In this document: in pieces, positions 34,686 through 57,995 of the stretch
How positions within the stretch are numbered: position 1 is the stretch's first letter
How the letters are laid out: each line of letters opens with the position of its first letter
Source of the DNA: an uncultured Roseovarius sp.
GTDB taxonomy: Bacteria; Pseudomonadota; Alphaproteobacteria; Rhodobacterales; Rhodobacteraceae
Length of the DNA stretch: 64,000 nucleotides
NCBI GenBank assembly: GCA_951812895.1
Contig: OX638333.1
Span: 796,366 to 860,365 of the forward strand
Direction of reading: 5' to 3'
Notes under the pieces: model-generated
The model's input: only the letters and a program-made list of their open reading frames with translations
The model's database searches: none
Told to the model about the DNA's origin: nothing
Position numbers and translations under genes: made by a program

Positions 34686-34925
34686 TTTCTGCGTGAGCAA
34701 TAGCGGCGTTAGCAAAAGGCGGCAAAGTCCCGCAGACTGTGAGTTAGAATGTACCTAGACCATGCACCTGCAGCGAAAGTCCGGTCTGGTGAACTGCAGT
34801 GCGGCGCTTGACTACCTCGCCAAGGTCCGGAATGGGCCGTCCTCGAAAGCGGTACAACCGCATGCTACGGCAGATGTTGCATTGCCTCGGATGGCCGTGA
34901 TGAGCCCATTTTGCCGGATGCTGCA
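34686..34925 (+). repeat. Intergenic repeat family, copy A
   Basis: Ordered blocks: AGTCCCGC (34726) and TGTGAGTT (34738); CATGCACCTGCAGCGAAAGT and CCGG (34761-34784); GGAATGGGCCGTCCTC (34829-34844); GATGTTGCATTGCCTCGGAT (34873) with GGCCGTGATGAGCCCA; GGATGCTGCAAAC (34916). The same blocks in the same order occur at copies B, C and D. Confidence 0.65.
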
Positions 34926-35065
34926 AACTGCCTGAATGGCGGAATAGTGCGGGAAACGGACGCCGGTTAATTCTCTAGTCAAATATCGTATCTCCGTCAG
35001 GTCACAACAAACTGCTGCTAAGCTTGGTCAGTTCTATAACCATGAAGTGAGTATTATCACTCAAG

Positions 35066-35911
35066 CTAAGTGGCCAGGGAGGTGGAAACAGCAACTGCCG
35101 GAACCATCTGCTGTCCATTCTCATTTTCTGCATAAGTGGTCAAAAGCCGAAACAATTCATTTTGCGAAGTTATATTTAGTTTCTTGTACAACGAGCGCCG
35201 GTGAACCTTCACCGTATGTATTGAAATTCCAAGATTCAGGCCAATCGCCCGGCTGGAATGCCCCTGTACGATCAGGGCTGCAACCTCGGCCTCTCGTAGT
35301 GATATTTCATTTCCATGGTGCTTGGATACGGCGCAGAATCTGTGCTCCAGAGACAACGCATCCGTTGAAAATGACGGAGTTTGAGGCAGTAAGACAGATT
35401 TCAGCTTTGGTGCCAGCACCCGCGATAGCTGCTTGAACTTTGTGATTTCTCCCGACCTGTAACGCCGCTGTCCGGCATTGCGCCCTAAGGACAGGTGGAC
35501 CGAAGAATTGTCGTCTATTTTTGCGACGAACCCAATTTCATCCACCATTTTTGTTGATCCATAATAGTTGGAAAAATACTCGCTGGTCTCAAATCGATCC
35601 GGCGCAATATCCCGCAATGGGTAGGCCGCCCAATCGTTTGTGCTCATGGAAATTTGAAAAAAGGGATCTAGCAGGTAACCCAGCAAATCATAGCGCCGGT
35701 CAAAGATATTGCGAAGCTGGTCATCGGGGATCCAACGAAACAGCACTGTTGGTCCTGAATTGCGAAAAAACAGCATTGCTACAACACTTTGTGCTGAAAA
35801 AGTAGCGCTACAGTAGGGGACAACGGCCTGTTCGTAGGCTTCCACATTCGCTGAAATCGCAACCGCGCTCAGAAAATCATACTCCGCGTTGTCACTCTCA
35901 TTCTTTGCCAT
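35066..35911 (-). CDS. LuxR-type transcriptional regulator
   Basis: A 281-residue regulator. The N-terminal 190 residues are not a response-regulator receiver; they look like a PAS- or GAF-like sensor (RWIPDDQLRNIFDRRYDLLG, VHLSLGRNAGQRRY). The C-terminus holds a LuxR helix-turn-helix: ISLREAEVAALIVQGHSSRA, then IGLNLGISIHTVKVHRRSLY. It diverges from the HDAC-like gene; an 18-bp dyad between them (35948-35965) is the probable binding site. I place the start at 35911 (MAKNESDNAEYD); an open upstream frame covers the divergent gene and is a shadow. It probably controls the deacetylase-transporter cluster. Confidence 0.85.
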   Translation of the reverse strand: MAKNESDNAEYDFLSAVAISANVEAYEQAVVPYCSATFSAQSVVAMLFFRNSGPTVLFRWIPDDQLRNIFDRRYDLLGYLLDPFFQISMSTNDWAAYPLRDIAPDRFETSEYFSNYYGSTKMVDEIGFVAKIDDNSSVHLSLGRNAGQRRYRSGEITKFKQLSRVLAPKLKSVLLPQTPSFSTDALSLEHRFCAVSKHHGNEISLREAEVAALIVQGHSSRAIGLNLGISIHTVKVHRRSLYKKLNITSQNELFRLLTTYAENENGQQMVPAVAVSTSLAT

Positions 35912-35947
35912 ATCACTAATAACATAAATCGGGTTATTGAGAAAACG

Positions 35948-35965
35948 ATACCACGCTGGTGGTAT
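35948..35965. promoter_or_regulatory. Candidate LuxR-family operator, 18-bp dyad
   Basis: ATACCAC-GCTG-GTGGTAT is a perfect 7-bp inverted repeat with a 4-base centre in the 98-bp divergent region between the LuxR gene and the HDAC-like gene. Size and position suit a LuxR-type dimer. The 10-mer GGTGGTATTG that includes its right arm also occurs at 50510-50519. Confidence 0.55.
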
Positions 35966-36009
35966 TGTCAAGGTTTTCCAAAAATCGAACACTCGCTCTC
36001 GGAGGGGCC

Positions 36010-37125
36010 ATGATTCACAAAAACTCGACTTGCAAGAGAACAACAGGACTTGTCGCATCGGAACTTTACTTCTGGCATGACACGATGAATTGGTGCGGTT
36101 TCTTCGAACCGACGATGACATTGCAGCCGGGCGAACATTTTGAAAATCCTGAAACCAAGCGCAGGATGCAGAACCTGCTACAGGCAATGGGGTTATGGGA
36201 TCACCTGCAATTGATGGCCCCCGACGCAGCAAGTAATGACGTGATTGGCTTTGTTCATCCTCAATCGCATATCGACCATCTGACTGCGGTTTGCGCAAGT
36301 GGTGGTGGAGACACCGGTGCGCTGACCCCGGCAGGGCCCGCCAGCCTAGATATCGCGCGAATGGCGGTGGGTGGTGTGATTGTGGCGGTTGATGCTGTTA
36401 TGGCCGGGGATGTGGACAACGCTTATGTTTTGTGTCGCCCGCCGGGGCACCATGCATTGCCGGAGCTTGCCATGGGGTTTTGCCTTTTTGCCAACGCGGC
36501 CATTGGTATCAGACATGCACAGAAACAACATGGTGTCACTCGCGTGGCTACGGTGGATTGGGATGTGCATCACGGTAACGGAACCGAGGCGATATTTCTG
36601 GATGATCCATCGGTTCTGACGATTTCACTACATCAGACCAACCTGTTCCCGCCAGACTCAGGCGGGACCGACGTGAAAGGTGCGGGCAATTCAAACCTAA
36701 ATATTCCTCTCCCGCCGGGGTCAGGTTCGGGCGCGTATCGGGAAGCGTTTGAACGAGTTGTCATCCCCGCTCTTGAAAACTTTGAGCCTGAGCTGATCGT
36801 TATACCCTGCGGTTTTGACGCGTCGGCACTGGATCCGCTTGGCATTCAGATGCTGGCATCTGAGGATTTCAGGTGGATGACACGGCAAGTCATGGCTGTT
36901 GCTGACAAACACTGTTCGGGCCGTATCGTAGCGACGCACGAGGGCGGGTATTCCGCAACCTATGTTCCGTATTGCGGACTAGCGGTTGTTGAAGAGCTTT
37001 CCGGGGCGTCCAACCAATTTGAAGACCCGTTTCAGGACTTTGTCGAAAACTATGGCGGCCAGGCATTGAGCAACGATCAGGCCGCTGCGATCGAGCAAGC
37101 GCACAAAGCGTATTTTCCAAGATAA
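36010..37125 (+). CDS. Class II histone deacetylase-like amidohydrolase
   Basis: A 371-residue zinc deacetylase of the class II HDAC / acetylpolyamine amidohydrolase superfamily. It starts with LVASELYFWHDTMNWCG, as HdaH-type proteins do. The charge-relay histidines are in RPPGHHA (H147, H148). Zinc ligands are D185 and H187 in VDWDVHHGNGT and D270 in CGFDASALD; the transition-state Tyr is Y314 in EGGYS. Bacterial members remove acetyl or longer acyl groups from polyamines or small amides. GGAGGGG upstream fixes the ATG. It heads a six-gene transporter-amidohydrolase operon. Confidence 0.9.
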   Translation: MIHKNSTCKRTTGLVASELYFWHDTMNWCGFFEPTMTLQPGEHFENPETKRRMQNLLQAMGLWDHLQLMAPDAASNDVIGFVHPQSHIDHLTAVCASGGGDTGALTPAGPASLDIARMAVGGVIVAVDAVMAGDVDNAYVLCRPPGHHALPELAMGFCLFANAAIGIRHAQKQHGVTRVATVDWDVHHGNGTEAIFLDDPSVLTISLHQTNLFPPDSGGTDVKGAGNSNLNIPLPPGSGSGAYREAFERVVIPALENFEPELIVIPCGFDASALDPLGIQMLASEDFRWMTRQVMAVADKHCSGRIVATHEGGYSATYVPYCGLAVVEELSGASNQFEDPFQDFVENYGGQALSNDQAAAIEQAHKAYFPR

Positions 37126-37144
37126 CAAATCCAGGGAGGATGGA

Positions 37145-38464
37145 ATGAGTAATCATTCGAAAAATAGTCAAACACGGCGCGGTTTTCTAAAAGGTGCTGG
37201 CGTCACTGCCGGATCCGCCGCGATGTTATCCGGTCTCAACCAAAGTGCCCAGGCGCAATCATCGGATCCGGTCGTGATCGGATGCCCGGCACCGCTGACC
37301 GGCATTGTCGCCGCTGACGGGATCGAGTTTCAACGCGGTCTGGAAATGGCGCGCGATGAGATCAACGAGATGGGGGGCATTCTGGGCCGCCCGATTGAGG
37401 TTGTCACGGTCGATACGGAAAGCAAGGGTGATGATGTGGTCATACAGGCCGCACAACGCCTGATCGACAAGGATAACGCCAGTGCGATCATCACGGGCTA
37501 CAACCTTGAGACGGGCACGGCTTTGCATGATGTGGTCGCGGATGCAGGAGTGATTGCGATGCACTCGAACACTGTCGCCGTTCATGACGAATTGGTAAAA
37601 TCCGATCCGGACAGGTTTTGGGGCACGATCCAGTATGATCCGCCTGAAACAATGTATGGCGAAGGCTTTCTCAAATTCATCAAAGATCTTGAAGATAACG
37701 GTGAATTCAAGCGCCCGAACAACAAGATTGCGATTGTGACCGGGCCAGGCACCTATTCCATCAATATTGCCAATGCGATGAACGACGGGGCCGCTGCCTT
37801 CGGCTACGAAGTGTCGCTCTTTGAGACGGTGAAAGTACCGGTCACTGATTGGGGGCCTACGCTGGCCAAACTACGGGCTGACCCGCCTGCGATCATCGCG
37901 ATTACGCATTTCTACACGCAAGATCAGGCGCAGTTCATGAATCAATTCATGACAGATCCGACCGACAGTCTTGTCTATCTGCAATATGGTGCGTCTCTGG
38001 CGGCGTTCCGCGACATTGCTGGCGATAATTCAGTCGGTTCGATCTACGCCACCGTTATCGGTGCGTTGCAAGATGAGATTGGCACCGGTTTTGCGGATGC
38101 CTACAAGGGTCGTTTCGGCGACAATGCCTCTCCCAATGGTGGCGGTCAGACATATCAGGCGCTTCATGCCTATGCTCTGGCCGCTGCTTTGGCAGGGGGG
38201 GCCGGTGCGCCTTATGAAGAAGATCAGAATCGCGTGGTCGCAGATCGGCTGAAATCGCTGATCTACCGCGGCCCGATGGGAACCATGCGAATCCGGCCCG
38301 ACACATTGTCGGCCTACAGCTATCCGACGGAAACCAACGATCCATCGCTGGGTATGCCGCATATCTTCAGTCAGGTTCACGACAAGGCAAAAGACGGTGT
38401 TCTCATCGCGCCGTCGCCCTATGAGCGTAGCAATTTCCAACTGCCGCCCTGGATGAAGAGCTGA
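37145..38464 (+). CDS. ABC transporter substrate-binding protein (urea/amide/branched-chain type, Tat-exported)
   Basis: A 439-residue periplasmic binding protein of the type I fold group (LivJ/UrtA/AmiC). The N-terminus has a twin-arginine motif (QTRRGFLKGAG) and an ALA-type cleavage at QSAQAQ. Domain signatures include VIGCPAPLTGIVAADGIEF, GLEMARDEINEMGGILGRPI, and AAQRLIDKDNASAIITGYN. The closest functional groups are the short-chain amide and urea binders. It stands 19 bases after the deacetylase and precedes both ATPases. Tat export means it is folded in the cytoplasm. Confidence 0.88.
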   Translation: MSNHSKNSQTRRGFLKGAGVTAGSAAMLSGLNQSAQAQSSDPVVIGCPAPLTGIVAADGIEFQRGLEMARDEINEMGGILGRPIEVVTVDTESKGDDVVIQAAQRLIDKDNASAIITGYNLETGTALHDVVADAGVIAMHSNTVAVHDELVKSDPDRFWGTIQYDPPETMYGEGFLKFIKDLEDNGEFKRPNNKIAIVTGPGTYSINIANAMNDGAAAFGYEVSLFETVKVPVTDWGPTLAKLRADPPAIIAITHFYTQDQAQFMNQFMTDPTDSLVYLQYGASLAAFRDIAGDNSVGSIYATVIGALQDEIGTGFADAYKGRFGDNASPNGGGQTYQALHAYALAAALAGGAGAPYEEDQNRVVADRLKSLIYRGPMGTMRIRPDTLSAYSYPTETNDPSLGMPHIFSQVHDKAKDGVLIAPSPYERSNFQLPPWMKS

Positions 38465-38471
38465 GGGTCTG

Positions 38472-39239
38472 GTGGTTACTGACACCACTACAATTCTGGA
38501 GTGCCGGGGTGTTGTGAAACGCTTCGGCGCGCTGGCCGCCGTGGATGGCGTTGATTTCACTGTCCAGCGCGGTGAAGTTGTTGGTGTTGGCGGCCCGAAC
38601 GGGGCCGGCAAGACCACTTTTTTTGATCTGATAAGCGGGCTGACCCCAACCACCGAAGGGGCCATCAAGCTTCTTGGCGAAGACATTACCGGCACCGCTC
38701 CGCACAAGTTATGCCATTTGGGGATGGCACGGACATTCCAGTTAAATTCTGGGTTTGATCATATGAGCGTTTTCGAGAACGTGCTGGTAGCCCGCGCATT
38801 TGGCCGCCGCAGTTCTGGTGGCTTGGTTCTGACCAAGCGGCAGGACAAGGAAATGGCAAGGGCATTGCTGTCCGAGATCGGGCTGGACGACATTGCCGCC
38901 GAAAAAGTCGCGGGGATCCCGATCCTTGCCCGCAAGAAACTGATGGTCGCGACAGCCTTGATGAACGAGCCTGAAATTTTGTTGTTGGATGAACCTGTTG
39001 GTGGACTGACCCCACCGGAGATCGACGAATTCATCGATCTCATGCTCTCATTGAAGTCTCGTGGCATGACCCTTGTTTTTATCGAACACGTGATGCGGTT
39101 CCTGACCACTGTGGCCGATCGGGCCGTGATGATGCATCAGGGCAAAGTTATCTACGATGGCGCGCCAGACGGACTGGCATCGGACAAAACCGTGTCCGAG
39201 GTGTACCTGGGAAGTTCCGGTTTGGGAGATGCAGCGTGA
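38472..39239 (+). CDS. Branched-chain-type ABC transporter ATPase (LivG/UrtD-like)
   Basis: A 255-residue ATPase. Walker A is GPNGAGKTTFF near 42-52, Walker B is LLLDEPVGGLTPPE, and the switch His is in FIEHVMRFL. ARTFQLNSGFDHMSVFENVLVA after Walker A is typical of LivG. The signature region (GIPILARKKLMVATALMNEP) lacks a textbook LSGGQ. Start is GTG with a weak ribosome site. It follows the binding-protein gene after 7 bases and overlaps the second ATPase by 4. Confidence 0.9.
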   Translation: MVTDTTTILECRGVVKRFGALAAVDGVDFTVQRGEVVGVGGPNGAGKTTFFDLISGLTPTTEGAIKLLGEDITGTAPHKLCHLGMARTFQLNSGFDHMSVFENVLVARAFGRRSSGGLVLTKRQDKEMARALLSEIGLDDIAAEKVAGIPILARKKLMVATALMNEPEILLLDEPVGGLTPPEIDEFIDLMLSLKSRGMTLVFIEHVMRFLTTVADRAVMMHQGKVIYDGAPDGLASDKTVSEVYLGSSGLGDAA

Positions 39240-39952
39240 GCGCTGTTCTGTCTTGTAGCGGTCTGGTTTCGGGCTATCTGAACCGGCCTGTGTTGCATGG
39301 CGTGTCGCTCGACATCCCGCAGCAAGGTGTTATGGCCCTGATCGGCCCAAACGGGCACGGCAAAACCACGCTACTACGTACGCTGTCGGGATTTTTGACG
39401 CTGCGTGATGGGCACATGTCCCTCAACGGGACTGACATGAACCGCGCGTCGGTACACGCCCGTGTCGAGTCTGGTCTGATCCATGTGCCACAAGGCGATC
39501 AGTTGTTCACCGAAATGACCGTCGAAGAAAACCTGTTGATGGGTGCCTACCTGTGCGTCGACGGGGCCGAGGTTTCAAACCGACTGAACGAGGTGTTCGC
39601 CTTGTTCCCCAAACTTAAAGACCGTCGCAACCAGATGGCTTCGGGATTGTCAGGAGGTGAGCGCAGGATGGTCGGGATCGGGCGCGGCCTGATGGCAGAC
39701 GCCAAGCTTTTGATGCTGGACGAGCCTTCGTTAGGGTTGGCCCCTTTGGTAATCGAACAGATCTACGAGGCTTTGGGCCACCTTCGGCAAAGCGGGATGG
39801 CGTTTTTGGTGGTCGAAGAAAACCCAAGCCGCCTGCTCAGCTTTGCTGACAGTCTGTGCCTGATGGATGCCGGTCACATCGTCTGGCGCGGCACTGCGGA
39901 AGAGGCGAAAAGCTCCGGCGATATCCTCAAGACCTATCTGGGAGGGCAGTAA
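39236..39952 (+). CDS. Branched-chain-type ABC transporter ATPase (LivF/UrtE-like)
   Basis: A 238-residue ATPase of the LivF group. Walker A is GPNGHGKTTLLRTL (Gly-His-Gly, a LivF trait), the signature is ASGLSGGERRMVGIGR, Walker B is LLMLDEPSLGLAPLVIEQI, and the switch region is VVEENPSRLLSFAD. It pairs with the LivG-type ATPase to drive the two permeases that follow. GTG start overlapping the previous stop by 4 bases. Confidence 0.92.
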   Translation: MSAVLSCSGLVSGYLNRPVLHGVSLDIPQQGVMALIGPNGHGKTTLLRTLSGFLTLRDGHMSLNGTDMNRASVHARVESGLIHVPQGDQLFTEMTVEENLLMGAYLCVDGAEVSNRLNEVFALFPKLKDRRNQMASGLSGGERRMVGIGRGLMADAKLLMLDEPSLGLAPLVIEQIYEALGHLRQSGMAFLVVEENPSRLLSFADSLCLMDAGHIVWRGTAEEAKSSGDILKTYLGGQ

Positions 39953-39955
39953 GAA

Positions 39956-40834
39956 ATGGATGTAGCTATCCAGATAGTAATTACCGGGCTGACGCTGGGA
40001 TCAATGTATGCGCTGGCTTCGGTGGGGTTGTCGCTGATTTACGGAACGTTGGGCATGTTCAATATGGCTCACGGCTTGTTCATGACGCTGGGGGCATACG
40101 TGGCCTATTCGGTCGCGGTGGCGTTTGGCATTCCATTGGTTCTTGGCATTGTCGTCGCTATGGCAGCCGGAGCGCTGATCGGCATTGTCACCCATCTTGT
40201 CATGGTCCGGTTCATGTTGGGGACCGCCGATTTCGGCACCAATGTTCTGGTTGCCACCGCTGGCCTGGGCATTTTGATCGAGGATCTGCTGCTGAAGGTT
40301 TATGGCGGCTATCCTTATCCGCAACCTCTGGCCGTCGAAGGATTCACGCGGATCGGAAGGGTTACTGTGACCTATCAGGCGGTGATCATCTTTGCGGTTG
40401 CACTGATCCTGATCCTGGGCGTGGCGTGGTTGTTGCTGAAAACCCGGTTTGGTCGGGCGATCCGTGCCACAGCCCTGAACCGCGAGGCCGCGATGCTGAT
40501 GGGGGTGAAGGCCGATACCGTATTTCTGCAGGTCATGGCGCTTGCAGGCATGCTGGCAGGGGTGGCGGGGCTGATGATTTCAACGCAGGCCACCCTGTCG
40601 CCACAGATGGGAGGTGATCCGCTGCTCAAGGCGTTCGTCATCTGCGTTGTGGCGGGATTGGGCAATGTCTGGGGGGCCGGTCTGTGTGCCTTTGGTCTGG
40701 CACTGCTGGAAGCCGCAATAGGGTTCTACATCGGCGTCCGATTTGGATTCCCTGCCATGTTGATTCTGGTGATCCTCGTGCTGATTTGGCGCCCTCAGGG
40801 GCTGTTTGGCAGCGAAAAGGTGGTGCGCCTGTGA
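39956..40834 (+). CDS. Branched-chain-type ABC permease (LivH-like)
   Basis: A 292-residue integral membrane permease. It has eight or nine transmembrane helices starting at TGLTLGSMYALASVGLSLIY, with the LivH signature GVAGLMISTQATLSPQMGGD and ATPase-contact motif ALNREAAMLMGVKAD. It supplies half of the membrane channel. Its GTG-starting partner overlaps it by 4 bases. Confidence 0.92.
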   Translation: MDVAIQIVITGLTLGSMYALASVGLSLIYGTLGMFNMAHGLFMTLGAYVAYSVAVAFGIPLVLGIVVAMAAGALIGIVTHLVMVRFMLGTADFGTNVLVATAGLGILIEDLLLKVYGGYPYPQPLAVEGFTRIGRVTVTYQAVIIFAVALILILGVAWLLLKTRFGRAIRATALNREAAMLMGVKADTVFLQVMALAGMLAGVAGLMISTQATLSPQMGGDPLLKAFVICVVAGLGNVWGAGLCAFGLALLEAAIGFYIGVRFGFPAMLILVILVLIWRPQGLFGSEKVVRL

Positions 40835-41847
40835 CCCAACTGGATGATCTGACACGCCACCTTCTGATTGGTGTACTGGTGATCGCAACCTTTGCTGTCT
40901 TGCCTGTATTCATCACTCAGCGATATTTGCTGGGCGAGGTGATCGTCTTTTTCATCTGGGCGATGGTGGCGATGAACTGGAACCTGTTGATGGGCCATGC
41001 AGGCGTGTTTTCGTTGGCTCAGATGCTGTTCTTTGCTGTCGGAGCCTACGGAATGGCCATGGGGGTCACATTCACCAGCATGTCCGTTTGGGTGGCAATT
41101 CCGGTTGCAGCGGTTTCCTCGGCCATACTTGCCTTGATCATCGGTGTGGCGTGCCTGCGCCTGACGGGGGCGTATGTGGCGCTTTTGACCTATGCCATCG
41201 CCGAGATGATCCACGTGCTGATCATCACAGATACCGAATGCTTCACACTGGTGCGCAACAACTGCCAGCAGCTTTTTGGTGGCTCCACCGGGTTTTCCCG
41301 CTTCGACGACTTCGGGTTTCGGCCTGTGTTGAAAAAGCATTGGGTCTTGGGAAATTATTATACCGTCCTTGCTGCGTTTGGTCTGACGATCTTTGGCGTG
41401 ATCGTTATCATTCACGGTCGCCTTGGCCTTGCCTTTCGCGCGATCCGCGACAATGTCGGCTATGCCAGCAGCCGCGGTATTGACCGCAAGAAATATCAGG
41501 TTGTGGCTTTTGCATTATCGGCCTTGCTGACAGGTCTGGCTGGCGGGGTCTATGCCGCACATTACCGGTTTGCCGGTCCCAGCCTGTTTGAGTTTTCCAC
41601 CCTGATGTTCATCCTCGCCATGGTGGTCGTTGGTGGGCTTGGGTCCACCTGGGGGCCGCTTATCGGCACAGGCATCATGATGATCGTGGTTGAATTTTCC
41701 AAAGAAATGGGAGACGCCCGCAATTTGGTTCTGGGTCTCGCCTTGATCATCTTTGTTGTCGTCATGCCCAAAGGGTTGGTTCATCTGGCAAGTAACGCTT
41801 GGCGAAAAGTAAGCCATGACCGGCAGGAGACGAAAGCTGACTCATGA
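40831..41847 (+). CDS. Branched-chain-type ABC permease (LivM-like)
   Basis: A 338-residue permease with eight or more transmembrane helices. MNWNLLMGHAGVFSLAQMLF is the LivM hallmark, and AIRDNVGYASSRGIDRKKYQ is the ATPase-coupling helix. An internal loop (TDTECFTLVRNNCQQLFGGS) is longer than in LivM proper and contains two Cys. I use the GTG at 40831 that overlaps the previous stop; the frame open to 40684 is a shadow. It completes the transporter and overlaps the amidohydrolase by 4 bases. Confidence 0.9.
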   Translation: MTQLDDLTRHLLIGVLVIATFAVLPVFITQRYLLGEVIVFFIWAMVAMNWNLLMGHAGVFSLAQMLFFAVGAYGMAMGVTFTSMSVWVAIPVAAVSSAILALIIGVACLRLTGAYVALLTYAIAEMIHVLIITDTECFTLVRNNCQQLFGGSTGFSRFDDFGFRPVLKKHWVLGNYYTVLAAFGLTIFGVIVIIHGRLGLAFRAIRDNVGYASSRGIDRKKYQVVAFALSALLTGLAGGVYAAHYRFAGPSLFEFSTLMFILAMVVVGGLGSTWGPLIGTGIMMIVVEFSKEMGDARNLVLGLALIIFVVVMPKGLVHLASNAWRKVSHDRQETKADS

Positions 41848-43520: not shown

Positions 43521-43579
43521 AGAAACTGACGGAAATGCGGATATCCAATGGTCATTTTTTTCAAAAAGCAGTCGTTGGC

Positions 43580-43805
43580 ACAGTTGCAGCGAAAGTCTGA
43601 AAAGTCCCGCGTTGCAGTCCTTGTATCGAATAAAATGTTGCACGATGCATGAATGTCCGGTTTGGCTACATCAGTTGGTCGAATTTCTGGTGTCTCGAAT
43701 GTCGGGTAAGGGCCGTCCACGATGGTGGTCTCGGTTTCCTGCAATGCAGATACTGCACCTGCTCCGATGACCGGTGAGAGCCCATATTGACCAATGCTGC
43801 GAAAC
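43580..43805 (+). repeat. Intergenic repeat family, copy B (in the 467-bp gap)
   Basis: The gap 43521-43987 between the amidohydrolase and RidA genes (tail to tail) has no gene. It holds TTGCAGCGAAAG (43584), AGTCCCGC (43603), GTTGCACGATGCATGAATGT with CCGG (43638-43661), GGGCCGTCC (43710), and CTGCTCCGATGACCGGTGAG with AGCCCA (43759-43784), then CCAATGCTGCGAAAC. The block order equals copies A and C. Confidence 0.65.
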
Positions 43806-43987
43806 GTATGAATGATCACGAACTGCACGAGACAGACATTGACCGTGGCAAAGGTGGTTCGTTTCTGCAATTGATCAGCCGAGCTCGTGCGGCAAATCGG
43901 ATATTGCATTTCAGCCATTCTCGCAATCAACTACATACCCACTGAGAACCGCAAAGTGAGTTACATCTCTAATCTGTGAGATTTGCT

Positions 43988-44371: not shown

Positions 44372-44373
44372 CG

Positions 44374-45372: not shown

Positions 45373-45444
45373 TGTTAGAAATCCACTTGGTTAGCTGATC
45401 TGTAAGGCGTTCTGCGTGGACCTCAACATCGCGGCAGAATGATC

Positions 45445-49275: not shown

Positions 49276-49525
49276 GGGATGTTCCTTCTGATGTTACGAT
49301 AATCAGCATGCGTTGCCGTTAACTCAACCCTCGGCCAATATTGATATTTTGATGAATATATTTTCGCCATGAAAACAATATAAATTCGCCAACATCACCG
49401 AGAACCCGTAGTTTACGACCCTCTGATCGCCACCTCCGGCATACAACAAAACGTGACTCTGGTTGCCCTCGATAGGATGTGAAGGTTAGTGCGAAACATG
49501 TATTTCTCAAACTGACGAGGATTTA

Positions 49526-50377: not shown

Positions 50378-50513
50378 CCAGCCAGCTGCGCGCTAAATCT
50401 GTATCCTCGCCCAGAGGCGGGCCTGGGCCGAGTCCATATTCTAGCCTCTAAATGTCCAATACCTGTTTGTCGCACGCCGCTATCCACTTATTCTGGTGAC
50501 AGCGCCTGAGGTG

Positions 50514-50546
50514 GTATTGGTATCGGAACGGATACAAACACAATAC
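50514..50546. promoter_or_regulatory. Nested dyad upstream of the peptide-type binding protein
   Basis: GTATTG (50514) pairs with CAATAC (50541) and the adjoining GTATC (50520) pairs with GATAC (50531), so two inverted repeats are nested around GGAACG. It is 77 bases upstream of the binding-protein start codon. The preceding GGTGGTATTG equals the right arm of the LuxR dyad plus adjoining bases. Confidence 0.4.
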
Positions 50547-50622
50547 TCACGAACCGTCAGCGCAGGTGGATGTCGTAGCATGTGCTCGACCGGAAAAAAC
50601 ACCGTGAAACGGGAGAAGTCTT

Positions 50623-52179
50623 ATGTCAAAAATTAACTCAGGTATTCTGGATCGCCGGGGTTTTATGAAAACAACTGCGGCCACGGCGCTTGCTGCATCA
50701 CTGCCGCTAAGCGCGGCCAAGGCAGCCCCCAAACGCGGCGGGAATATCCGCATGGGCAAAGCCCATGGCCAGACAACAGACACGCTCAACCCTGCCACCT
50801 ATGAAAACGGATTTACGACGGCTCTTTGCCATGGGCAGCACGGACGCCTGACCGAAGTTGCCCCAGACGGCTCGCTTATTCCCGAACTGGCCGAAAGCTG
50901 GGAAGCGTCCGATGATGCAACTGAATGGCGGTTCAAAATCCGCCAGGGTGTAAATTTCCACTCAGGCAAGGAACTTGATGTTCATGATGTGATCAACTCG
51001 ATCAACTTCCACCGCGGTCCCGATTCCACGTCGGCCGTTGGGACACTCGTCGCTGATGTCGTGGATCTGCAGGCGGATGGCCAAGACACGGTTGTTTTCA
51101 AATTGTCGGGCGGCAATGCTGATTTTCCGTTCTTCCTGTCGGAATACCATTTCAGCATCTGCCCGGCCAAGGATGACACCATTGATTGGCAATCCGGCGA
51201 TGGTTGCGGCAGCTATGTACTCAAAAGCTTCAACCCGGGTGTGAATGCCACGTTTGAGCGACATGAAAACCATTGGCGTGACGACGTTGCTTTCTTCGAT
51301 ACCATCGAAATGCTGGCATTGGTTGATCAAAACGCGCGTACAACCGCCCTGGTTTCCGGGGATGTTGATGCCGTTGATCGGGTTGACCTCAAAACCGCTG
51401 GGCTGTTGGCGCGCAAGCCCGGCATTTCGCTGCAATCGATCTCGGGCATGCTGCATTATACCTTTGCCATGTCGACCAATCAGGACCCTTATACGGACAA
51501 CAATATTCGCCAAGCCCTCAAATACGGGGTTAACCGCGAAGAATTGGTTGAAAAAATCCTGTTCGGCTATGGCTCCATTGGCAACGACCATCCAATTGGC
51601 AAGGGTCAGCGGTTCTTCAACTCTGAGTTGGAGCAAAAGGCCTATGATCCCGACCAGGCCAAGTGGTATCTGAAACAAGCGGGCCTGGACACCCTCTCGG
51701 TCAGCCTGTCGGCATCAGATGCGGCATATGGCGGTGCGGTTGATGCGGCCACGCTTTATCAGGCCTCTGCCAAAGCTGCAGGGATCGATCTTAAACCGAT
51801 TCGGGAACCAAATGACGGCTATTGGTCGGATGTGTGGATGAAGAAACCTTTCTCTGCCGTCTACTGGTCGGGTCGTTCAGTCGAAGACCAGATGTTCACG
51901 ACGACATATGCATGTGGCGGAGACTGGAATGATACCTTCTGGTGCCATGATCGTTTTCAGGAATTGCTGGTGTCTGCACGCGCCGAACTCGATCAGGACA
52001 AGCGGCGACAGATGTACTGGGAAATGCAGGATATCGTCGCCAATGAAGGCGGAGCGGTCATTCCGATGTTCGCCGATTGGGTATTTGGTGTTTCCGACAA
52101 GATCGCTCTCCCCGACGTGATGGCGTCGAACTGGGACCTTGACGGCGAACGCTGGATGGAACGCTGGTCGATGGCGTGA
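50623..52179 (+). CDS. ABC substrate-binding protein, family 5 (peptide/opine type), Tat-exported
   Basis: A 518-residue SBP_bac_5 protein. The N-terminus has a twin-arginine motif (LDRRGFMKTTAATALAASLP) with AKA cleavage. Lobe signatures: GLYEVAPDGSLIPELAESWE-like LTEVAPDGSLIPELAESWEA, FKIRQGVNFHSGKELDVHDV, NNIRQALKYGVNREELVEKI and VIPMFADWVFGVSDKIALP. It resembles dipeptide/oligopeptide or opine binders. No permease or ATPase follows, so it is orphaned here. A large hairpin begins 80 bases after its stop. Confidence 0.88.
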   Translation: MSKINSGILDRRGFMKTTAATALAASLPLSAAKAAPKRGGNIRMGKAHGQTTDTLNPATYENGFTTALCHGQHGRLTEVAPDGSLIPELAESWEASDDATEWRFKIRQGVNFHSGKELDVHDVINSINFHRGPDSTSAVGTLVADVVDLQADGQDTVVFKLSGGNADFPFFLSEYHFSICPAKDDTIDWQSGDGCGSYVLKSFNPGVNATFERHENHWRDDVAFFDTIEMLALVDQNARTTALVSGDVDAVDRVDLKTAGLLARKPGISLQSISGMLHYTFAMSTNQDPYTDNNIRQALKYGVNREELVEKILFGYGSIGNDHPIGKGQRFFNSELEQKAYDPDQAKWYLKQAGLDTLSVSLSASDAAYGGAVDAATLYQASAKAAGIDLKPIREPNDGYWSDVWMKKPFSAVYWSGRSVEDQMFTTTYACGGDWNDTFWCHDRFQELLVSARAELDQDKRRQMYWEMQDIVANEGGAVIPMFADWVFGVSDKIALPDVMASNWDLDGERWMERWSMA

Positions 52180-52259
52180 ATGTCAGCGGTCGCCTGCTCT
52201 GGCAGTTTGCCGAATGACAACGCACTAAGAATAAGCGTCTCATCAGGGCCCCCACAACG

Positions 52260-52322
52260 CGGCAGGTTTTACTTGGGTCAAAAGCCGAGTGTCAGCTTTT
52301 GACCCAAGTAATAGGCCTGCCG
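52260..52322. terminator. Large inverted repeat downstream of the binding-protein gene
   Basis: CGGCAGG (52260-52266) pairs with CCTGCCG (52316-52322), and inside them TACTTGGGTCAAAAGC (52270-52285) pairs perfectly with GCTTTTGACCCAAGTA (52295-52310) across a 9-base loop. There is no T-run, so it may be a stable 3' end or a remnant of a mobile palindrome rather than a classical terminator. Confidence 0.5.
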
Positions 52323-52404
52323 GTACAAACGCTGCAACAGTTTGGTCTATGCCTCGGGTGTATATTTTCACTGTAGCGAAGTGCCGAAAGCAGCCCATGG
52401 GGTG

Positions 52405-52630
52405 ATCGCGGCGAAAGCCTGCTTAGTCCCGCGTTGTGTGAGTTGGTCCGAACCGAATTGCTGCAGGATGCACGAAAGGCGGCTTTCGGGAAACCGGCAG
52501 GGGAAATTTGAAAGATGTCGAATGGCTGCAATGGGCCGTGCTCAACGGCAAGATCATCGACCGCTGGAGCAATGCTGCACAAACCCCGATGACCGTGAGA
52601 GCCCAATCTGTGGAATGCTGCGTATCGTCC
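52405..52630 (+). repeat. Intergenic repeat family, copy C (in the 620-bp gap)
   Basis: The gap 52180-52799 has no gene; it holds the large hairpin above and this repeat. Blocks: AGTCCCGCG (52425), TGTGAGTT (52437), TTGCTGCAGGATGCACGAAA (52459) and GGCGG, AATGGGCCGTGCTC (52530), AATGCTGCACAAACCCCGAT (52571) and GACCGTGAGAGCCCA, and GGAATGCTGCG (52612). It is the most complete match to B. Confidence 0.65.
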
Positions 52631-52799
52631 GAAAGATCACTGTGCGCAGAATGCGGACATAACTCATCCCTCCGAAGTCCGATTATTCGGATGTTTGTCG
52701 CCGATTTTAAACCTGGCAGTCGACCACACCGAGAATAGACCTCTCTGCAGGTAATATTGCGGGGTCAAAAGGGAATGAGGCTCATGTAGGTTATGACAC

Positions 52800-54632
52800 A
52801 TGAGTTTGATAAAGAGGACAGGCGCGCGAGGCAGCGCGGGATTTGGTCGGGTATTGGCCATGGTCACTGTATTAATTGCTGGTTCGTTATCCGCGCTTGC
52901 AGCAGACCCTTTCCAGCCTCCTTTCAGTCTCAGGACGTTGGAGTGGCGTTATCAGGGTGGGGATGATCTGGAGTGGTCAGACTCTCGATTTGACGATTCT
53001 CGGTGGTCGGCTGTACGATTGACCGAACAGCTTTCATCGGGCGTTGCTGCAGATAAAGCTGGATTTGCGTGGTTCCGGGTCCGGATTCCTGCAGAAGTGG
53101 TGCAGCGTTATAAACGACCAATGCTGTTTCTGGGACGCATCCAGAATGCGGATCAGACATATGTTAACGGGCAGTTGATCGGCTCTACCGGGACATTCGT
53201 CACATCAGCCCGAGATTATGCCGGAACGGCAACGGGCCTGATCACAAGGGCTTACCTGCTGCCGCAAGCCGAGCAAGACCTGGTTCTGGCTCTCCGTGTT
53301 CAAGCTCTTGAAGGCGCGCCGGAACTTTCAGGCCCTGTTCTGATCGGGGATGCCCATCAGGTGTCGGCCCTGGCGCGTCGTTCTGATATCGGGCTGTGGC
53401 TGCGAGACAGTTTTATGCTCACAGCACTTGCGATTGGTACGGCCCTCGGTGCAATCATCGCCTATGGGGCCGGGAGTGACAGGCGGCACAGATGGCTGCC
53501 GTGGTTTCTGGGCTCACTCCTTGTGGCAAGCGTTCCGTATACCATCACGGGGTATTATGCGGGGCTGTCTACCAGCGCACTGGTCTGGTTGGGGGAATGT
53601 CTGCCTTATCTCGCATTTGGCCTTCTGCATTTTCTGAGCGTTCTGGGCATCCCGTTCGGCCGGGTTCTGCCTGGTCTCATGATTGGCTACTACGGGATCC
53701 TCATTGCAATTTGGGTGGTAAACCCTGACGTCAGCCAGTTCATTTTCTGGTCTTTCGCGCTCTATGCCTTGCCCGGCCTGAGTGCGCTGATTGTTTTCTT
53801 CAGGCTTTGGCGTGCTTTCTGGTCAGGGCGGGTTGTTTCGAAATGGAACTATATCGCGGTCGGTGTGATTGTAGCTATGATCGCTGGCCATGGTCTGCTG
53901 GGGGCCTCACTTCCGGCTGTGATGGATCCCTTTAGCATAGGCATCATCGTGCTTGTCTTTTGTCTTCTGATGTCCCTTGCAGACCATCACCGAGCCGACC
54001 GACGCGCGCTGACAAAAGCCACCGGCGCCCTGCTTGTGGCGCAGGATACCGAGCGTGAACGGATCGCCCGTGACCTGCATGACGAGCTTAGTCAGCGTAT
54101 TGCCGCCACCCGGTTACGGCTTGAAGCGCTTGCCCTTTCGGGCAAGCCCATCGGCAAGGACGATATAGCCTCACCGATTGAAGAGCTCCGGGAAACCAGT
54201 CTGAGCGTTTCGGCCATGGTCGAGGGGCTTGATCCGGCATCCCTGAACGCTATGACCTTTGGCGAAGCTCTGACCAGTAGTGTAGAGCGTTGGCAGGGCA
54301 TTGCCGGTGCCCGTCTGTCACTGAGCCTGTCAGGAGATATGCGCCCGGACCCTGAAACGCAGGTTCAGGCCTTGCGCATTTGTCAGGAAGCGCTGCACAA
54401 CGCGATCCGGCACGGCAAAGCCGCATTGATCGTCGTCACCGCCGATCTGAAATCAGGGGTGGGGATCGTTACCATCCGCGATGATGGCAGGGGATTTAAC
54501 ACAGACGCTGTCCCCTCCGGAATTGGTCTTCGCAGTATGACCGAACGGGCCAGGCTGATCCGGGCCAGGCTGAACATCACAAGCGTCCCGGGCAGGGGAT
54601 GCACCGTGAGACTGGAGTTCAGAGGCCCATGA
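52800..54632 (+). CDS. Sensor histidine kinase with DISM-like sensor (HisKA_3 type)
   Basis: A 610-residue membrane kinase. A signal peptide (VLIAGSLSALAADP) leads to a galactose-binding-like extracellular domain (about 45-195), including FLGRIQNADQTYVNGQLIGS. Seven predicted helices follow (7TMR-DISM style). The catalytic part has HisKA_3 ERERIARDLHDELSQRIAAT with the phospho-acceptor His, then HATPase motifs EALHNAIRHGKAA, IRDDGRGFN, and SGIGLRSMTERARLI. An alternative start exists at 52860. It overlaps the response-regulator gene by ATGA. The signal sensed is probably carbohydrate-like, inferred from the sensor fold. Confidence 0.88.
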   Translation: MSLIKRTGARGSAGFGRVLAMVTVLIAGSLSALAADPFQPPFSLRTLEWRYQGGDDLEWSDSRFDDSRWSAVRLTEQLSSGVAADKAGFAWFRVRIPAEVVQRYKRPMLFLGRIQNADQTYVNGQLIGSTGTFVTSARDYAGTATGLITRAYLLPQAEQDLVLALRVQALEGAPELSGPVLIGDAHQVSALARRSDIGLWLRDSFMLTALAIGTALGAIIAYGAGSDRRHRWLPWFLGSLLVASVPYTITGYYAGLSTSALVWLGECLPYLAFGLLHFLSVLGIPFGRVLPGLMIGYYGILIAIWVVNPDVSQFIFWSFALYALPGLSALIVFFRLWRAFWSGRVVSKWNYIAVGVIVAMIAGHGLLGASLPAVMDPFSIGIIVLVFCLLMSLADHHRADRRALTKATGALLVAQDTERERIARDLHDELSQRIAATRLRLEALALSGKPIGKDDIASPIEELRETSLSVSAMVEGLDPASLNAMTFGEALTSSVERWQGIAGARLSLSLSGDMRPDPETQVQALRICQEALHNAIRHGKAALIVVTADLKSGVGIVTIRDDGRGFNTDAVPSGIGLRSMTERARLIRARLNITSVPGRGCTVRLEFRGP

Positions 54633-55258
54633 TACGGATTGTTCTTGTCGATGATCACACCATCGTGCGCCATATGATGTGCGATACCCTAACCGCACAG
54701 AATGATTTTGAGGTTATCGCGGATTACAGCACCGGTGAAGAGCTTTTGGACCGTATCGGAACCCTGCAAGCCGATATCGTGATCATGGATGTTGGCTTGC
54801 CAGATGATGACGGGATCGAAACCACCCGTAAACTGCGGCAACAGTCGGTTGAAACGCCCATCCTGTTTCTGACCATGCACCTGAACGAGGCCATCATGAA
54901 GCGGACGTTCGACGCCGGGGGCAATGGCTATGCAGTCAAGCATGAACCTTTCGAAGTGCTTGCAGATGGCATCCGCAGGGTCGCGGCGGGCGCGACGTTC
55001 AAAAGCCCGATGATCCTGTCCCGGGGCCGTGAGATGAGTGATGAAATCGCTCTGCTGGATAAACTCTCTTCCCGCGAGCGAGAGATCGTTTCGCTTGTCG
55101 CCAGCGGCTGGACCGCGACAGAGATTGCCGACCATCTGTCCATCAGCGGCCGCACGGTGGATTACCACCGCCGCAACATCGCCGAAAAGACCGGCCTCAG
55201 ACGCATTGCCGACATCGCGAAATTTGCCATCGCTGTCGGCATCCGGTCTGATCAATAG
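54629..55258 (+). CDS. NarL/FixJ-family response regulator
   Basis: A 209-residue two-domain regulator. The receiver domain has VLVDDHTIVRHMM (acidic pair D-D), the phospho-acceptor Asp in DIVIMDVGLPDDDGIETT, and switch residues LFLTMH and KHEP. The C-terminal LuxR-type helix-turn-helix is LSSREREIVSLVASGWTATE, then IADHLSISGRTVDYHRRNIA. ATG 54629 overlaps the kinase stop by 4 bases, so the two are a cognate pair. The 769-frame barrel protein that follows is a candidate target. Confidence 0.92.
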   Translation: MIRIVLVDDHTIVRHMMCDTLTAQNDFEVIADYSTGEELLDRIGTLQADIVIMDVGLPDDDGIETTRKLRQQSVETPILFLTMHLNEAIMKRTFDAGGNGYAVKHEPFEVLADGIRRVAAGATFKSPMILSRGREMSDEIALLDKLSSREREIVSLVASGWTATEIADHLSISGRTVDYHRRNIAEKTGLRRIADIAKFAIAVGIRSDQ

Positions 55259-55295
55259 GCCAAAACCCCCGAAAACAACGAAAAAACTACCCCCA

Positions 55296-55321
55296 CCCCG
55301 GTAAGGTTACGGGTACCGGGA
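55296..55321 (+). terminator. Weak hairpin between the response regulator and the barrel protein gene
   Basis: CCCGGTA-N10-TACCGGG, a 7-bp stem with a 10-base loop, 38 bases after the response-regulator stop. No T-run, so it may be an attenuator or regulator site for the downstream gene. Confidence 0.3.
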
Positions 55322-55419
55322 CCCACGTCCATTTGCTTTCATTGAATGAATGAAAACCGGATTTGGGCCAGTGCGCGGCCCGGAAACCGGCGTTCGGAAC
55401 TGGAACAGGGGATTCCATT

Positions 55420-57672
55420 ATGCATCGCAGAATTGGGAAAGCGCGAACCGCAGCAGCCATGCAACACCGTCAGGCCCGCAGGCCCGGGCAGAGATCTGAC
55501 ATCGCACGCGTCTGCCTTTCTGCGGCCTGTATGGCCTGCCTTTCGGTCCCAGCCAGCCTGACCCAGACCCAGCCGCTATATGCCCAGGCAGTGACGCGCA
55601 CCATCCCGGTCACCATTGGCCCTTGCCCTACGGGCCGGTTTCCAGTTGGCCCGAACGAGGATGTGGTGATCGTTGTCGAAAATCTGTCAGGCCAGCCGGT
55701 GAGTCTCGACATTATTGGCCTGGGTGGCGAGCCAGGTTTATTCGGCATCGCCCTTGCTCCGGGTCAGCAAGTCGGTGTGCCTTTCACCAATGGCCCGGTC
55801 CCGGACTCTTTTTTTGTGGATTGCTCAACGACCGGCCCCGCGGTTCCGACCGGCAGCACCGAGGGAACCGATGTGACCAGCAATATAAGCGATACGACCA
55901 CGGACGCAGTGCTGAACATCTGGGACAATTACGGCATCTTGCAGGCAACGGCAGCCGTGCCGCCGCTCTCGCCTGTGATGAAAAAGCGCCTTGAAACGCT
56001 GATAAAGCTAAAAAGGCGAAAGAAAAACGCAGAAGTAAAATGGCGCACCAAAGCGAAAGAAATCCGGGCGTTGAAGGTTAAACTCGCGCCGCTACGGCAG
56101 CGTATATTCGACCTAGAGGCAGAGCAGCCTGATCTGGAACGCGATCTGAGATTTCAGGATGAACACATTGAACGCCAGGAGAAGTGGATACGAGAGAACC
56201 AGGCAGATATCAAAGCGCGGGAGGGAGAAGAAAACTCTCTTCTCGACACCCTGCTTTCACCAGTTAAGCGAACAGTTAATGAAAGCCTGAATGACGACAA
56301 CAGGAAATTGATTCAAAAGGCCAGAGCCAAGATCGAGCAGGCAAAAAAGGACAAGGTTGAAATTAATCGCCAACTGCAAGAGCTCAGGCAGTTAAAAGCG
56401 GACCCGCGCCTGGGCGACCTGAACCATCTTGAAAAAGAACGCGCCGCGCTCAAGAAAAAATTCGAAGAAGCGTGTAGGGTGTTGGATTTTGTAAAAGATT
56501 TAGGCCCTAGAAAAGATGCGACGGATGAAGAGAAGAAAGAACTCGATGAGCATCTGGAAATACTCGACGAAGAGGACGCGATACTAGATGCTATTGAAAA
56601 GGAAGAAGAGGTAGGACGCCTCGCCTTTTCCCCGCTGATCAGCACCCGCAGTGGCCCCACCGGCACTGGTGCGCCGGACATCACTGTCTGGTCCAGTGTC
56701 ACCTATTCTGAAACCTCCGGTGGGCGTCTGCCCAACGGGCGAAACGGACAAGTGGCCAACCTCAATTTCGGGGCCAGTTACAAAATCTCTAAAACCGTCT
56801 CCGCCGGTTTTGCCCTGCGCTATCAGCGCAAGGACACCAGCACCACCGCCACAGGTACCAGCATCGGCACCGATCTCTTCGGGCTTGCCGGTTTTGCCAC
56901 CGTGAAACAGCCTAGCGGGCTGACCTTCAATTTCATTGCTGCTGTTGAGCATGGTGAAAACGATGTCACCTCGGCTGGTAACAGCGGAACGTTCGATTTC
57001 GACAGCTTCATCCTTGGTGCTGATGTGTCGCAGAGCTTTGACCTTGGCAGCAACTGGGCTATCACTCCGAAACTGGGAGTGAACTGGGGCACAACCACAC
57101 GCCACGCCTACACCAACAGTGCCAGGACGTTCTTTGCAGCTGAAACCTTTGAGGTTGGTGTGATCAGCTATGGCGCTTCTGTCGCGCGGCCGTTCTATCC
57201 GGTGGGGCGCGACAGCGGGCTGTCCTCTGTCACTGCCACATTTGGGCTTGGCGGCACCTATTTCTTTGAACAGCCCCCGGGTGGGGTGCCCTCGGCCACA
57301 TCGAATGTGCCAGAGGCCTTCACCGATGTGACCCTTTCTGGCGGGCTCGATTTCCTGTTCACCAACGGGCTGAGCACCTCGATAGACGGCTCTGTCCAGT
57401 TCGGCGCGTCGAACGGCGGCGATCCGTGGTCGGTGAACTGGGCGATGTCGATGCCGGTTGCCGCCCCGGACAGCAACGGCACCCTCGGGCTGACCGCTGG
57501 GTATACCGATCTTCCGGCTGGCCGCAATTCGTGGAGCGTTGGCGGCCAGCTTAGTCTGCCGCTGTCGGCACTATTTGGCGGTCCTGATAATGGTGGCCGT
57601 CTTAATGCGACCACCTCTGGCACAGGCGATGAGGCGTTGCGCGCAACGCTGGAGGTCGAGCTTCCGCTATAA
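55420..57672 (+). CDS. Coiled-coil protein with C-terminal autotransporter-like outer-membrane barrel
   Basis: A 750-residue secreted protein of unusual layout. A long basic N-terminus leads to a signal-like segment (CLSAACMACLSVPASLTQTQ). Residues about 55-155 form a small domain (IPVTIGPCPTGRFPVGPNED). Residues about 170-400 are a highly charged coiled coil (LETLIKLKRRKKNAEVKWRT, DNRKLIQKARAKIEQAKKDK). Residues 430-750 are an autotransporter-type barrel of alternating strands, ending LEVELPL. GGGGA before ATG 55420 is better than the TTG at 55363. It may span from cell surface to periplasm. The preceding two-component pair may control it. Confidence 0.75.
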   Translation: MHRRIGKARTAAAMQHRQARRPGQRSDIARVCLSAACMACLSVPASLTQTQPLYAQAVTRTIPVTIGPCPTGRFPVGPNEDVVIVVENLSGQPVSLDIIGLGGEPGLFGIALAPGQQVGVPFTNGPVPDSFFVDCSTTGPAVPTGSTEGTDVTSNISDTTTDAVLNIWDNYGILQATAAVPPLSPVMKKRLETLIKLKRRKKNAEVKWRTKAKEIRALKVKLAPLRQRIFDLEAEQPDLERDLRFQDEHIERQEKWIRENQADIKAREGEENSLLDTLLSPVKRTVNESLNDDNRKLIQKARAKIEQAKKDKVEINRQLQELRQLKADPRLGDLNHLEKERAALKKKFEEACRVLDFVKDLGPRKDATDEEKKELDEHLEILDEEDAILDAIEKEEEVGRLAFSPLISTRSGPTGTGAPDITVWSSVTYSETSGGRLPNGRNGQVANLNFGASYKISKTVSAGFALRYQRKDTSTTATGTSIGTDLFGLAGFATVKQPSGLTFNFIAAVEHGENDVTSAGNSGTFDFDSFILGADVSQSFDLGSNWAITPKLGVNWGTTTRHAYTNSARTFFAAETFEVGVISYGASVARPFYPVGRDSGLSSVTATFGLGGTYFFEQPPGGVPSATSNVPEAFTDVTLSGGLDFLFTNGLSTSIDGSVQFGASNGGDPWSVNWAMSMPVAAPDSNGTLGLTAGYTDLPAGRNSWSVGGQLSLPLSALFGGPDNGGRLNATTSGTGDEALRATLEVELPL

Positions 57673-57784
57673 GGTTTGGCGATTGCTTCAAACAGAGCCG
57701 ATGGGCGCGATCAAGCCAAGGCACTCGTCTCTTCAACATCTGATAATTTTGTATCGCCGCATTACACGGATAACTGCCCTTGGG

Positions 57785-57995
57785 GCGCTTGCAGCGAAAA
57801 CTCATTTTGTCACGCACTGCCGTCATCTGAGAATCGCAAATGCTGCGCTATCGATGAATGGCAGCAATGCGAAAGCTGCACTGCAGCGGCGAAAGTTGCG
57901 ACCAATGTCCGGATTGGGCCGTCCTCATCGGTCAGATCGTGAGCGGCTAGGCAAAATGCTGCACGAGCTCCGATGGCGGCGAAGAGCCCAGAGCA
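57785..57995 (+). repeat. Intergenic repeat family, copy D (in the 351-bp gap)
   Basis: The gap 57673-58023 has no gene. The repeat has TTGCAGCGAAAA (57793), GCAGCGGCGAAAGTTGCGAC (57884), TGTCCGGATTGGGCCGTCCT (57906), AAATGCTGCACGAGCTCCGA (57954), and AAGAGCCCA. The AGTCCCGC block of copies A-C is degraded here. Confidence 0.55.

Follow-up and report, generated by a model that had tools for sequence, protein, structure and literature searches.

Directional repeats bounding exchanged gene modules in Rhodobacteraceae, probable joints of an integron-like cassette platform

We report that intergenic repeats, four copies of which lie in a 64,000-bp stretch of DNA from an uncultured Roseovarius sp. 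(hereafter the window), form a family of directional sites and are not merely decayed elements. Alignments show, at the level of sequence, that the DNA between successive boundaries, each placed after the last base of the motif GGGCCG (GGGCCG|), is exchanged as a module together with its own 3' site part, L. Probably, judging from the same kind of data, the repeats serve as the joints of a cassette platform that resembles an integron without being a classical one. The accessory genomes of marine Rhodobacteraceae are very fluid. If our reading is correct, site-specific trade of whole transcription units (a regulator plus enzymes or transporters) would account for the intact passage of modules from one genus to another, and the system would realize the integron principle separately and with a larger cargo; since cassette boundaries would be predictable to the base, software could catalogue them, as is the case for integron cassettes.

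The four segments, which a sequence-only reading of the window had described as sharing ordered blocks, are alignable over their length with a mean column identity of 65%. The blocks and their order agree with that description, except that the first block, said there to be lost from the fourth copy (D), is present in degraded form (TGTCACGC). Within the window a profile search (E≤0.05) matched only these four, in keeping with the stated absence of copies at 1-31 kb; a weak partial L-like copy lies just upstream of copy A (about 34511-34669, plus strand; nhmmer 17 bits; repeat family D5). The profile was built from 11 copies; with 150 of the 1675 first-look candidates scored, it matched at least 47 places at E≤0.01 in the 4.54-Mb host genome against 0.01 expected, which refutes a profile no better than chance. 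After merging matches up to 2 kb apart the copies were strongly clustered, with 24 neighbour pairs within 20 kb compared with 6.0 expected for uniform placement, and four 20-kb stretches that were not picked for nearness to copies (L207-L210) gave no match at E≤0.1.

Each copy consists of two parts: L, about 150 bp and ending exactly in GGGCCG|, and then R, 66-68 bp and ending in GAGCCC. All on the plus strand, L and R span 34688-34839 (L-only HMM 66.1 bits, left end approximate) and 34840-34907 (68 bp, GAGCCC end) in copy A, 43564-43715 (26.3 bits) and 43716-43783 (68 bp) in copy B, 52387-52538 and 52539-52604 (66 bp) in copy C, and 57770-57921 (54.8 bits) and 57922-57989 (68 bp) in copy D, with the GGGCCG| boundaries at 34839, 43715, 52538 and 57921; the R parts of A, C and D were read from the sequence. 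The right end of L is sharp, its last model base being reached by 192/211 L matches. No R follows L in 119 of the 195 full-ended sites, and in these 119 conservation, nearly 2 bits throughout GGGCCG, is down to about 0.4 bit at most one base further on. Among 207 distinct Rhodobacteraceae L sites the DNA to the right of GGGCCG| is unrelated, except where R or a recombinase gene follows. Two features count against the platform: GAGCCC marks a less sharp end than GGGCCG, with some conservation persisting beyond it, and a second exchange point within L, TGTCC|GC, is left unaccounted for.

Parts of the repeats also recur with unrelated flanks. The first 69 bases past the boundary of copy B are identical to a copy at G000:C1:1057340 (minus strand), and a 115-bp patch within L of copy C, running from TGTCC|GC to GGGC, is 99% identical to a copy at G000:C1:3316571 (minus strand). 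The ends of such patches coincide with the most conserved blocks, as would be expected of gene conversion between mosaic repeats in the manner of Neisseria, with the blocks as start and stop points of homologous recombination; PMC3898611 suggests that neisserial repeat arrays promote exchange of adjacent loci. However, the blocks are short, the host copies are only about 65% alike, and neither the direction of the sites nor the recombinase gene is accounted for, and we consider this explanation very unlikely.

One case of exchange is a cassette of 2852/2851 bp shared by G014 and a genome of another genus (G040), 83% identical over 2829 bp and comprising an AraC regulator, two dehydrogenases and its own 3' L. 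Homology ends at the last base of GGGCCG, and both the 5' L and the right neighbour are unrelated. Two cassettes of G014 have their final 973 bp in common at 97%, and two of G202 are 99% identical over bases 1-501, but the L that precedes each is not shared. Among 25 homologous site pairs, five match on both sides, all of them local tandem copies 119-440 bp apart, and for the remaining 20 none (0/20) match across the boundary. Homologous modules of different genomes start or stop at a fixed repeat base beside unrelated neighbours, and, as in integrons, the unit is one or more genes with their own 3' site. The proposal that the repeats are decayed mobile elements which mark cassette boundaries and let modules recombine is supported as regards boundary marking and recombination; as a whole account, decayed elements are not supported.

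Applied to the window (plus strand), these boundaries, with genes assigned by Pfam, delimit cassette 1 at 34840-43715 (8876 bp), which carries a histone-deacetylase-type protein, a Peripla_BP_6 binding protein, further genes, an amidohydrolase and the L of copy B. Cassette 2 (43716-52538, 8823 bp) has the order R, AraC-type regulator, hydantoinase B and A, FGE-sulfatase-type protein, SBP_bac_5 binding protein and the L of copy C, and cassette 3 (52539-57921, 5383 bp) the order R, histidine kinase, response regulator, autotransporter-domain protein and the L of copy D. Cassette 4 starts at 57922, runs through the end of the window at 64000 to a right boundary at G000:C1:861899, and carries an IS110 element (60108-61127) and a MoCo-binding protein gene.

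Insertion sequences recur at the repeats: two IS1182-type and two IS110-type elements lie at or beside repeat blocks, IS1182-b at TGTCC|GC in 2/2 fetched copies, IS1182-a at GGGC in 1/2, and an IS110 of 352 aa beside TGGGCTC in 3/3, with a full R in only one. Exchange might be driven by IS docked at the conserved blocks: identical IS copies in separate repeats would recombine homologously and later be lost, swapping whatever DNA adjoins them on each side. We regard this as improbable, since alignments of the shared cassettes show no IS at their boundaries, different IS sit at different blocks, and the recombinase gene within the site is unaccounted for.

That gene, int, encodes a small Xer-like tyrosine recombinase of about 210 aa and, in related bacteria, lies between L and R. 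It was located inside the repeat at L162, L126, L187, L145 (truncated) and G009, on the strand opposite to the array and with its 5' end facing R and the following module; the order L-int-R also occurs on two named plasmids. Pfam Phage_integrase matched all three Ints tested, the catalytic R, K, HxxR, H and Y are kept in 12 aligned sequences, and the AlphaFold model has a mean pLDDT of 56.8. L and/or R adjoin int on the opposite strand at 19/30 fetched loci, and at 17 of the 18 fetched loci whose identity to the query is 72% or higher. Against the platform, 10 of the 12 divergent loci are without detectable L or R, and the only int found in the host genome is a remnant, so that the arrays there may have become passive.

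L-int-R could also be a small tyrosine-recombinase mobile element, of which the copies lacking int are MITE-like internal-deletion derivatives, left as scars in accessory regions and not moving modules. The position of Int inside the repeat, the near-fixed length of R (66-68 bp in 37/37 strict matches) and the recurrence of R and L patches with unrelated flanks are in its favour, but it predicts neither whole shared cassettes ending in GGGCCG| with their own 3' L nor a single direction per array, and we think it unlikely. Taken together, the precise end of L, the near-fixed length of R, the one-way arrays and the recombinase gene inside give the copies the appearance of sites at which a cassette system recombines. 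A phage origin was rejected: no exact match to the R pattern occurred in viral contigs, and the int relatives in 14 phage records, all below 60% identity, also count against it. Long terminal inverted arms were seen in some of eight copies and are not general ends.

The one-way character of the arrays is pronounced. In the host all 24 merged neighbour loci have the same direction (28/32 unmerged), which was matched in 0/20,000 strand shuffles, and of the neighbouring L sites in the Rhodobacteraceae genomes that are spaced by 300 bp or more, 109/111 agree in orientation. Orientation set by replication was unsupported, as, in the stretches sampled, clusters of both strands lie in the arc with mostly negative GC skew. 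Accretion anchored at tRNA genes as the only cause was likewise rejected; arrays after tRNA-Lys and tRNA-Phe run in the same direction, and others misfit. Module orientation relative to the array was consistent across genomes for 9 homologous blocks and inverted for 4, a non-significant tally that counts against the platform; it is a recount without IS and int rows and is not used as proof.

Under the cassette platform, Int would recombine L with L or L with R at or near GGGCCG|, and modules would be cut out as circles and reinserted, by analogy with IntI acting on attC and attI. A single crossover that inserts a circle would keep the sites of an array all in one direction. R, beside the 5' end of int, may be an attI-like receiving site or an int-less remnant, which is the least certain step, and the host arrays would be CALIN-like, lacking an integrase and dependent on a recombinase supplied from elsewhere.

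The attC core of integrons is of the GTTRRRY type. Such a core is absent from L, in which GGGCCG is followed by unconserved sequence (the 119 sites above), and TIGR02249 (IntI) scored 25.1, 22.6 and 17.5 bits for three Ints against a cut-off of 265, which was exceeded in 0/10 genomes; a classical integron was therefore rejected. In a fold test of 40 L sites, run without a real attC as positive control, mean z was -0.50 on one strand and -0.51 on the other, so that these values give no indication of a folding signal or of attC-like single-strand use. According to PMC8618304, integrons and CALINs share with the present system one-way arrays of cassettes that each end in a recombination site, a tyrosine recombinase gene that runs counter to the array and has a conserved site by its 5' end, and some arrays without recombinase (CALINs); L-int-R has this arrangement, with R as the putative counterpart of attI. 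Differences from integrons are the multi-gene inter-site DNA (median spacing 2.1 kb), its own regulators, and the recurrence of R along arrays. With a recombinase that is not IntI and an L that lacks the attC core, the system appears integron-like in its working and is not an integron by definition.

A structured RNA was also rejected, since 11 copies give five invariant pairs, none with two-sided change; the mean fold z of R segments (n=59), -0.17, counts against it as well, and an Rfam search of the window matched only a tRNA.

Neighbouring pdif sites alternate in orientation, and dif modules have 28-bp XerC/XerD binding sites. The present sites differ in being about 150 bp, in sharing one orientation (109/111 neighbouring L) and in holding a dedicated recombinase gene. 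The dif modules of Acinetobacter plasmids are similar in that Xer-type recombination moves gene modules about between short sites (PMC13141974) and in that IS target these sites (PMC10132070). Neisserial NIME (RS repeats with dRS3) are likewise small intergenic mosaics whose junctions are fixed, and are tied to gene exchange; dRS3, however, is a 20-bp phage-integrase target, and the accessible text of PMC3898611 describes no internal recombinase gene or 3'-site cassette. REP elements are intergenic repeats acting as specific IS targets (PMC1525189), but they are short palindromes, whereas the present sites bound gene cassettes. Rit (recombinase-in-trio) elements tie simple tyrosine recombinases to mobile DNA (PMC8138268), unlike the present system with one small recombinase instead of three, plus cassettes of cargo genes. 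The literature searched, mostly open-access papers, yielded no account of this system.

Int relatives, mostly 50-61% identical, are present on plasmids of Sinorhizobium, Escherichia, Klebsiella, Pseudomonas and Acetobacter. We tentatively raise the possibility, which we hold to be somewhat doubtful, that they operate sister systems, each with a boundary core of its own, forming a second, IntI-independent platform of the integron type beyond Rhodobacteraceae that would carry a good part of proteobacterial module exchange. Candidates for such cores are TTGGCAC or TGGGTCG, which precede the hairpin at the 3' end of int on a single plasmid each of E. coli and Pseudomonas.

The sequence-only reading had proposed that four intergenic segments of the window (copies A-D) form one repeat family, and this was borne out by their alignment, in which homology spans the full length. 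The profile search for which that reading called was run with a profile from 11 copies; it gave 47 places on the 4.54-Mb host chromosome (uncultured Roseovarius sp.) at E<=0.01, copies A-D being the sole matches in the window. With the same profile, 22 of 23 other genomes of the genus had matches, as had one of 16 genomes of the class outside the genus (E 0.006). A second profile of 40 copies (37 family-wide and three from the window) matched 116 of 198 genomes of the bacterial family, host counted; at most about 10 candidates were scored per genome, so this search sets minimum copy numbers. In named genomes, 66 stretches carried a pattern built for the right part of the repeat; of these, 59 were Rhodobacteraceae-type by title sorting (three in MAGs labelled otherwise) and seven, of odd lengths, were from other taxa.

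The left part of the repeat, here termed L, is ~150 bp long, starts near AAAGCAGCCATTGG and ends TGAATGTCCGCTATGGGCCG, and the last base of the terminal GGGCCG forms the boundary. The final model base was reached by 192 of 211 L matches. The boundary could be read across in 195 L sites, where it was followed by a second segment, R, in 73 (loose pattern), by the end typical of a recombinase gene (int, see below) in three and by neither in 119; in these 119, conservation collapses one base past GGGCCG. Under a strict pattern R follows 37 L sites, with its end at 66 (n = 1), 67 (n = 24) or 68 bp (n = 12). Both ends of R are conserved while its interior is variable, and its terminal GAGCCC is a softer boundary. 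We searched the repeats for RNA structure and found none, and 40 L sites taken as single strands, with no attC control alongside, gave no folding signal. In some copies the repeat extends beyond R into a longer composite form, which adds a GCTGCG...CGCAGC hairpin and a partial, inverted L arm (among others at fetched loci L159:5560-6060, L095:18930-19440, L102:5890-6450 and L171:4710-5230).

Neighbouring copies point in one direction. In the host, after merging hits within 2 kb, neighbouring loci <=20 kb apart were on one strand in 24 of 24 cases, where uniform placement predicts 6.0 neighbour pairs within that distance; unmerged, 28 of 32 neighbours agreed, the four exceptions being short or weak partial copies near another copy. 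None of 20,000 shuffles of strand reached the agreement seen in the host. In other genomes of the genus, same versus opposite orientation among the best-scoring listed hits was 22 to 3 for pairs 2-20 kb apart, 16 to 3 at 0.5-2 kb and 8 to 5 beyond 20 kb. Named-genome loci gave 39 to 0 (stronger copies >=300 bp apart, 16 weaker rows left out), and an L-only profile across all fetched loci gave 109 neighbours in the same orientation and two in opposite. Replication direction was rejected as setting the strand, because in sampled stretches clusters on both strands share an arc of mostly negative GC skew.

Host copies are ~65% alike overall, yet they share near-identical patches that end at conserved blocks: copy B and a copy at 1057340 are identical over the first 69 bases past GGGCCG, and copy C and a copy at 3316571 are 99% alike over 115 bp of L, from TGTCC/GC to GGGC. 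The same kind of patch links named genomes, e.g. Marivita hallyeonensis and isolate 2-1022. Whole cassettes, i.e. modules with their own 3' L lying between successive boundaries, are also shared. A 2.85-kb cassette is common to two genomes of different genera (G014 and G040); its G014 member encodes an AraC-type regulator and two short-chain dehydrogenases, as named from sequence. The homology includes the cassette's own 3' L and reaches the final base of GGGCCG; neither the 5' L nor the right neighbour is related. Two cassettes in one G014 array are 97% alike over their final 973 bp, with the same stop base, and two in another genome (G202) share the first 501 bases past the boundary and not the preceding L. 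For a pair formed by locus L174 and genome G094, 97% identity over 1.7 kb stops within the 3' L at TGTCCGC. Among 207 distinct sites (the L-only set of 211, four being places fetched twice), homology extends to both sides in five pairs, each formed by local tandem copies, and does not cross the boundary in the other 20 pairs (15 downstream, five upstream). Three of the upstream pairs reach the last base, a fourth ends 35 bp before it and in the fifth the match lies farther from the boundary; 13 downstream pairs start <=37 bases from the boundary in both members, and int cassettes make up six of the 15. Separately, identical R or L+R patches set in unrelated flanking DNA were seen within and between species, e.g. 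in Leisingera, Ruegeria and Sulfitobacter algicola (loci L125-L190).

The int gene, encoding a small Xer-like tyrosine recombinase (Int), lies between L and R against the array direction at loci L162, L126, L187 and L145 (truncated) and in genome G009, the order along the array being L, int (reversed), R, module. L-int-R order also occurs on Phaeobacter inhibens pP30_b and on the megaplasmid of Ruegeria TM1040. In aligned pairs int DNA is 74-87% alike, whereas the L halves differ. Counted from the likely start, Int has ~210 aa. It matches the Phage_integrase and Xer models and retains R, K, HxxR, H and Y, and among solved structures its nearest relatives are the catalytic domains of XerA, XerC and XerD. 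The gene is present in 28 of 60 genomes of the genus, several copies having stops, and the host has one remnant (1160191-1160541). Adjacent L and/or R on the opposite strand were found at 19 of 30 fetched int loci, namely 17 of 18 with >=72% identity to the query versus two of 12 others; at one of these two, L225, an R-like match is also on the wrong side. No adjoining L or R was detectable at L224, L227, L228, L229, L230, L232, L233, L234 and L237 (recombinase relatives, 42-66% identical), and such divergent relatives may use their own sites. Further relatives (57-61% identical), flanked by unrelated gene modules, are on E. coli pERB9a1 (L263), Sinorhizobium meliloti p_1 (L264) and a Pseudomonas sp. 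plasmid (L265); in L263 and L265 a hairpin at the end of the recombinase gene comes after AATGTCCGCTGTTGGCAC or GGCCGCAATGGGTCG, an arrangement that resembles the L end. Comparable AATGTCCGCTTT repeats are widespread in Proteobacteria.

Sequence comparison establishes fixed boundaries, arrays that run one way, exchange of cassettes together with their own L, and the placement within the site of int, whose product retains the catalytic residues. In the best reading, Int is the putative enzyme and would join L to another L or to R, with a predicted crossover at the GGGCCG boundary or close to it. Cassettes would exit as circles and return through a single crossover, and because of this mode of re-entry all array sites would be held in one direction. 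An apparent second exchange point inside L is at TGTCC/GC. The order L, int (reversed), R, module matches the intI (reversed), attI and cassettes of integrons, and R may be attI-like. However, Int falls outside the integron-defining IntI family, L sites lack the attC core, and the sites do not show the opposite orientation that distinguishes dif modules; the system is therefore filed under neither class.

In the window, three cassettes (34840-43715, 43716-52538 and 52539-57921) are complete and bounded by copies A-D, and a fourth starts at 57922 and ends past the window at position 861899 of the host contig. The cassettes hold one transcription unit or several, and L starts ~45 bp (copy B) or ~100 bp (copy D) past the stop of the last ORF. 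The first site is 3.6 kb past tRNA-Lys (31055-31130); between them is a PF07508 large serine recombinase gene (31492-32754, minus strand) with its N-terminal catalytic part missing, and this truncated gene beside tRNA-Lys is an integrative-element remnant.

Two classes of insertion sequence (IS) also dock at the conserved blocks, and the sites look like shared IS targets; likewise, IS dock at pdif sites, as described in PMC10132070. IS1182- and IS110-family elements were observed at or beside these blocks in the host and other Rhodobacteraceae, at L098:7425-8795, L196:4848-6218, L107:7112-8497, L100:9947-11005, L104:8470-9528, L202:18618-19676, window 60108-61127 and L157:4492-5511.
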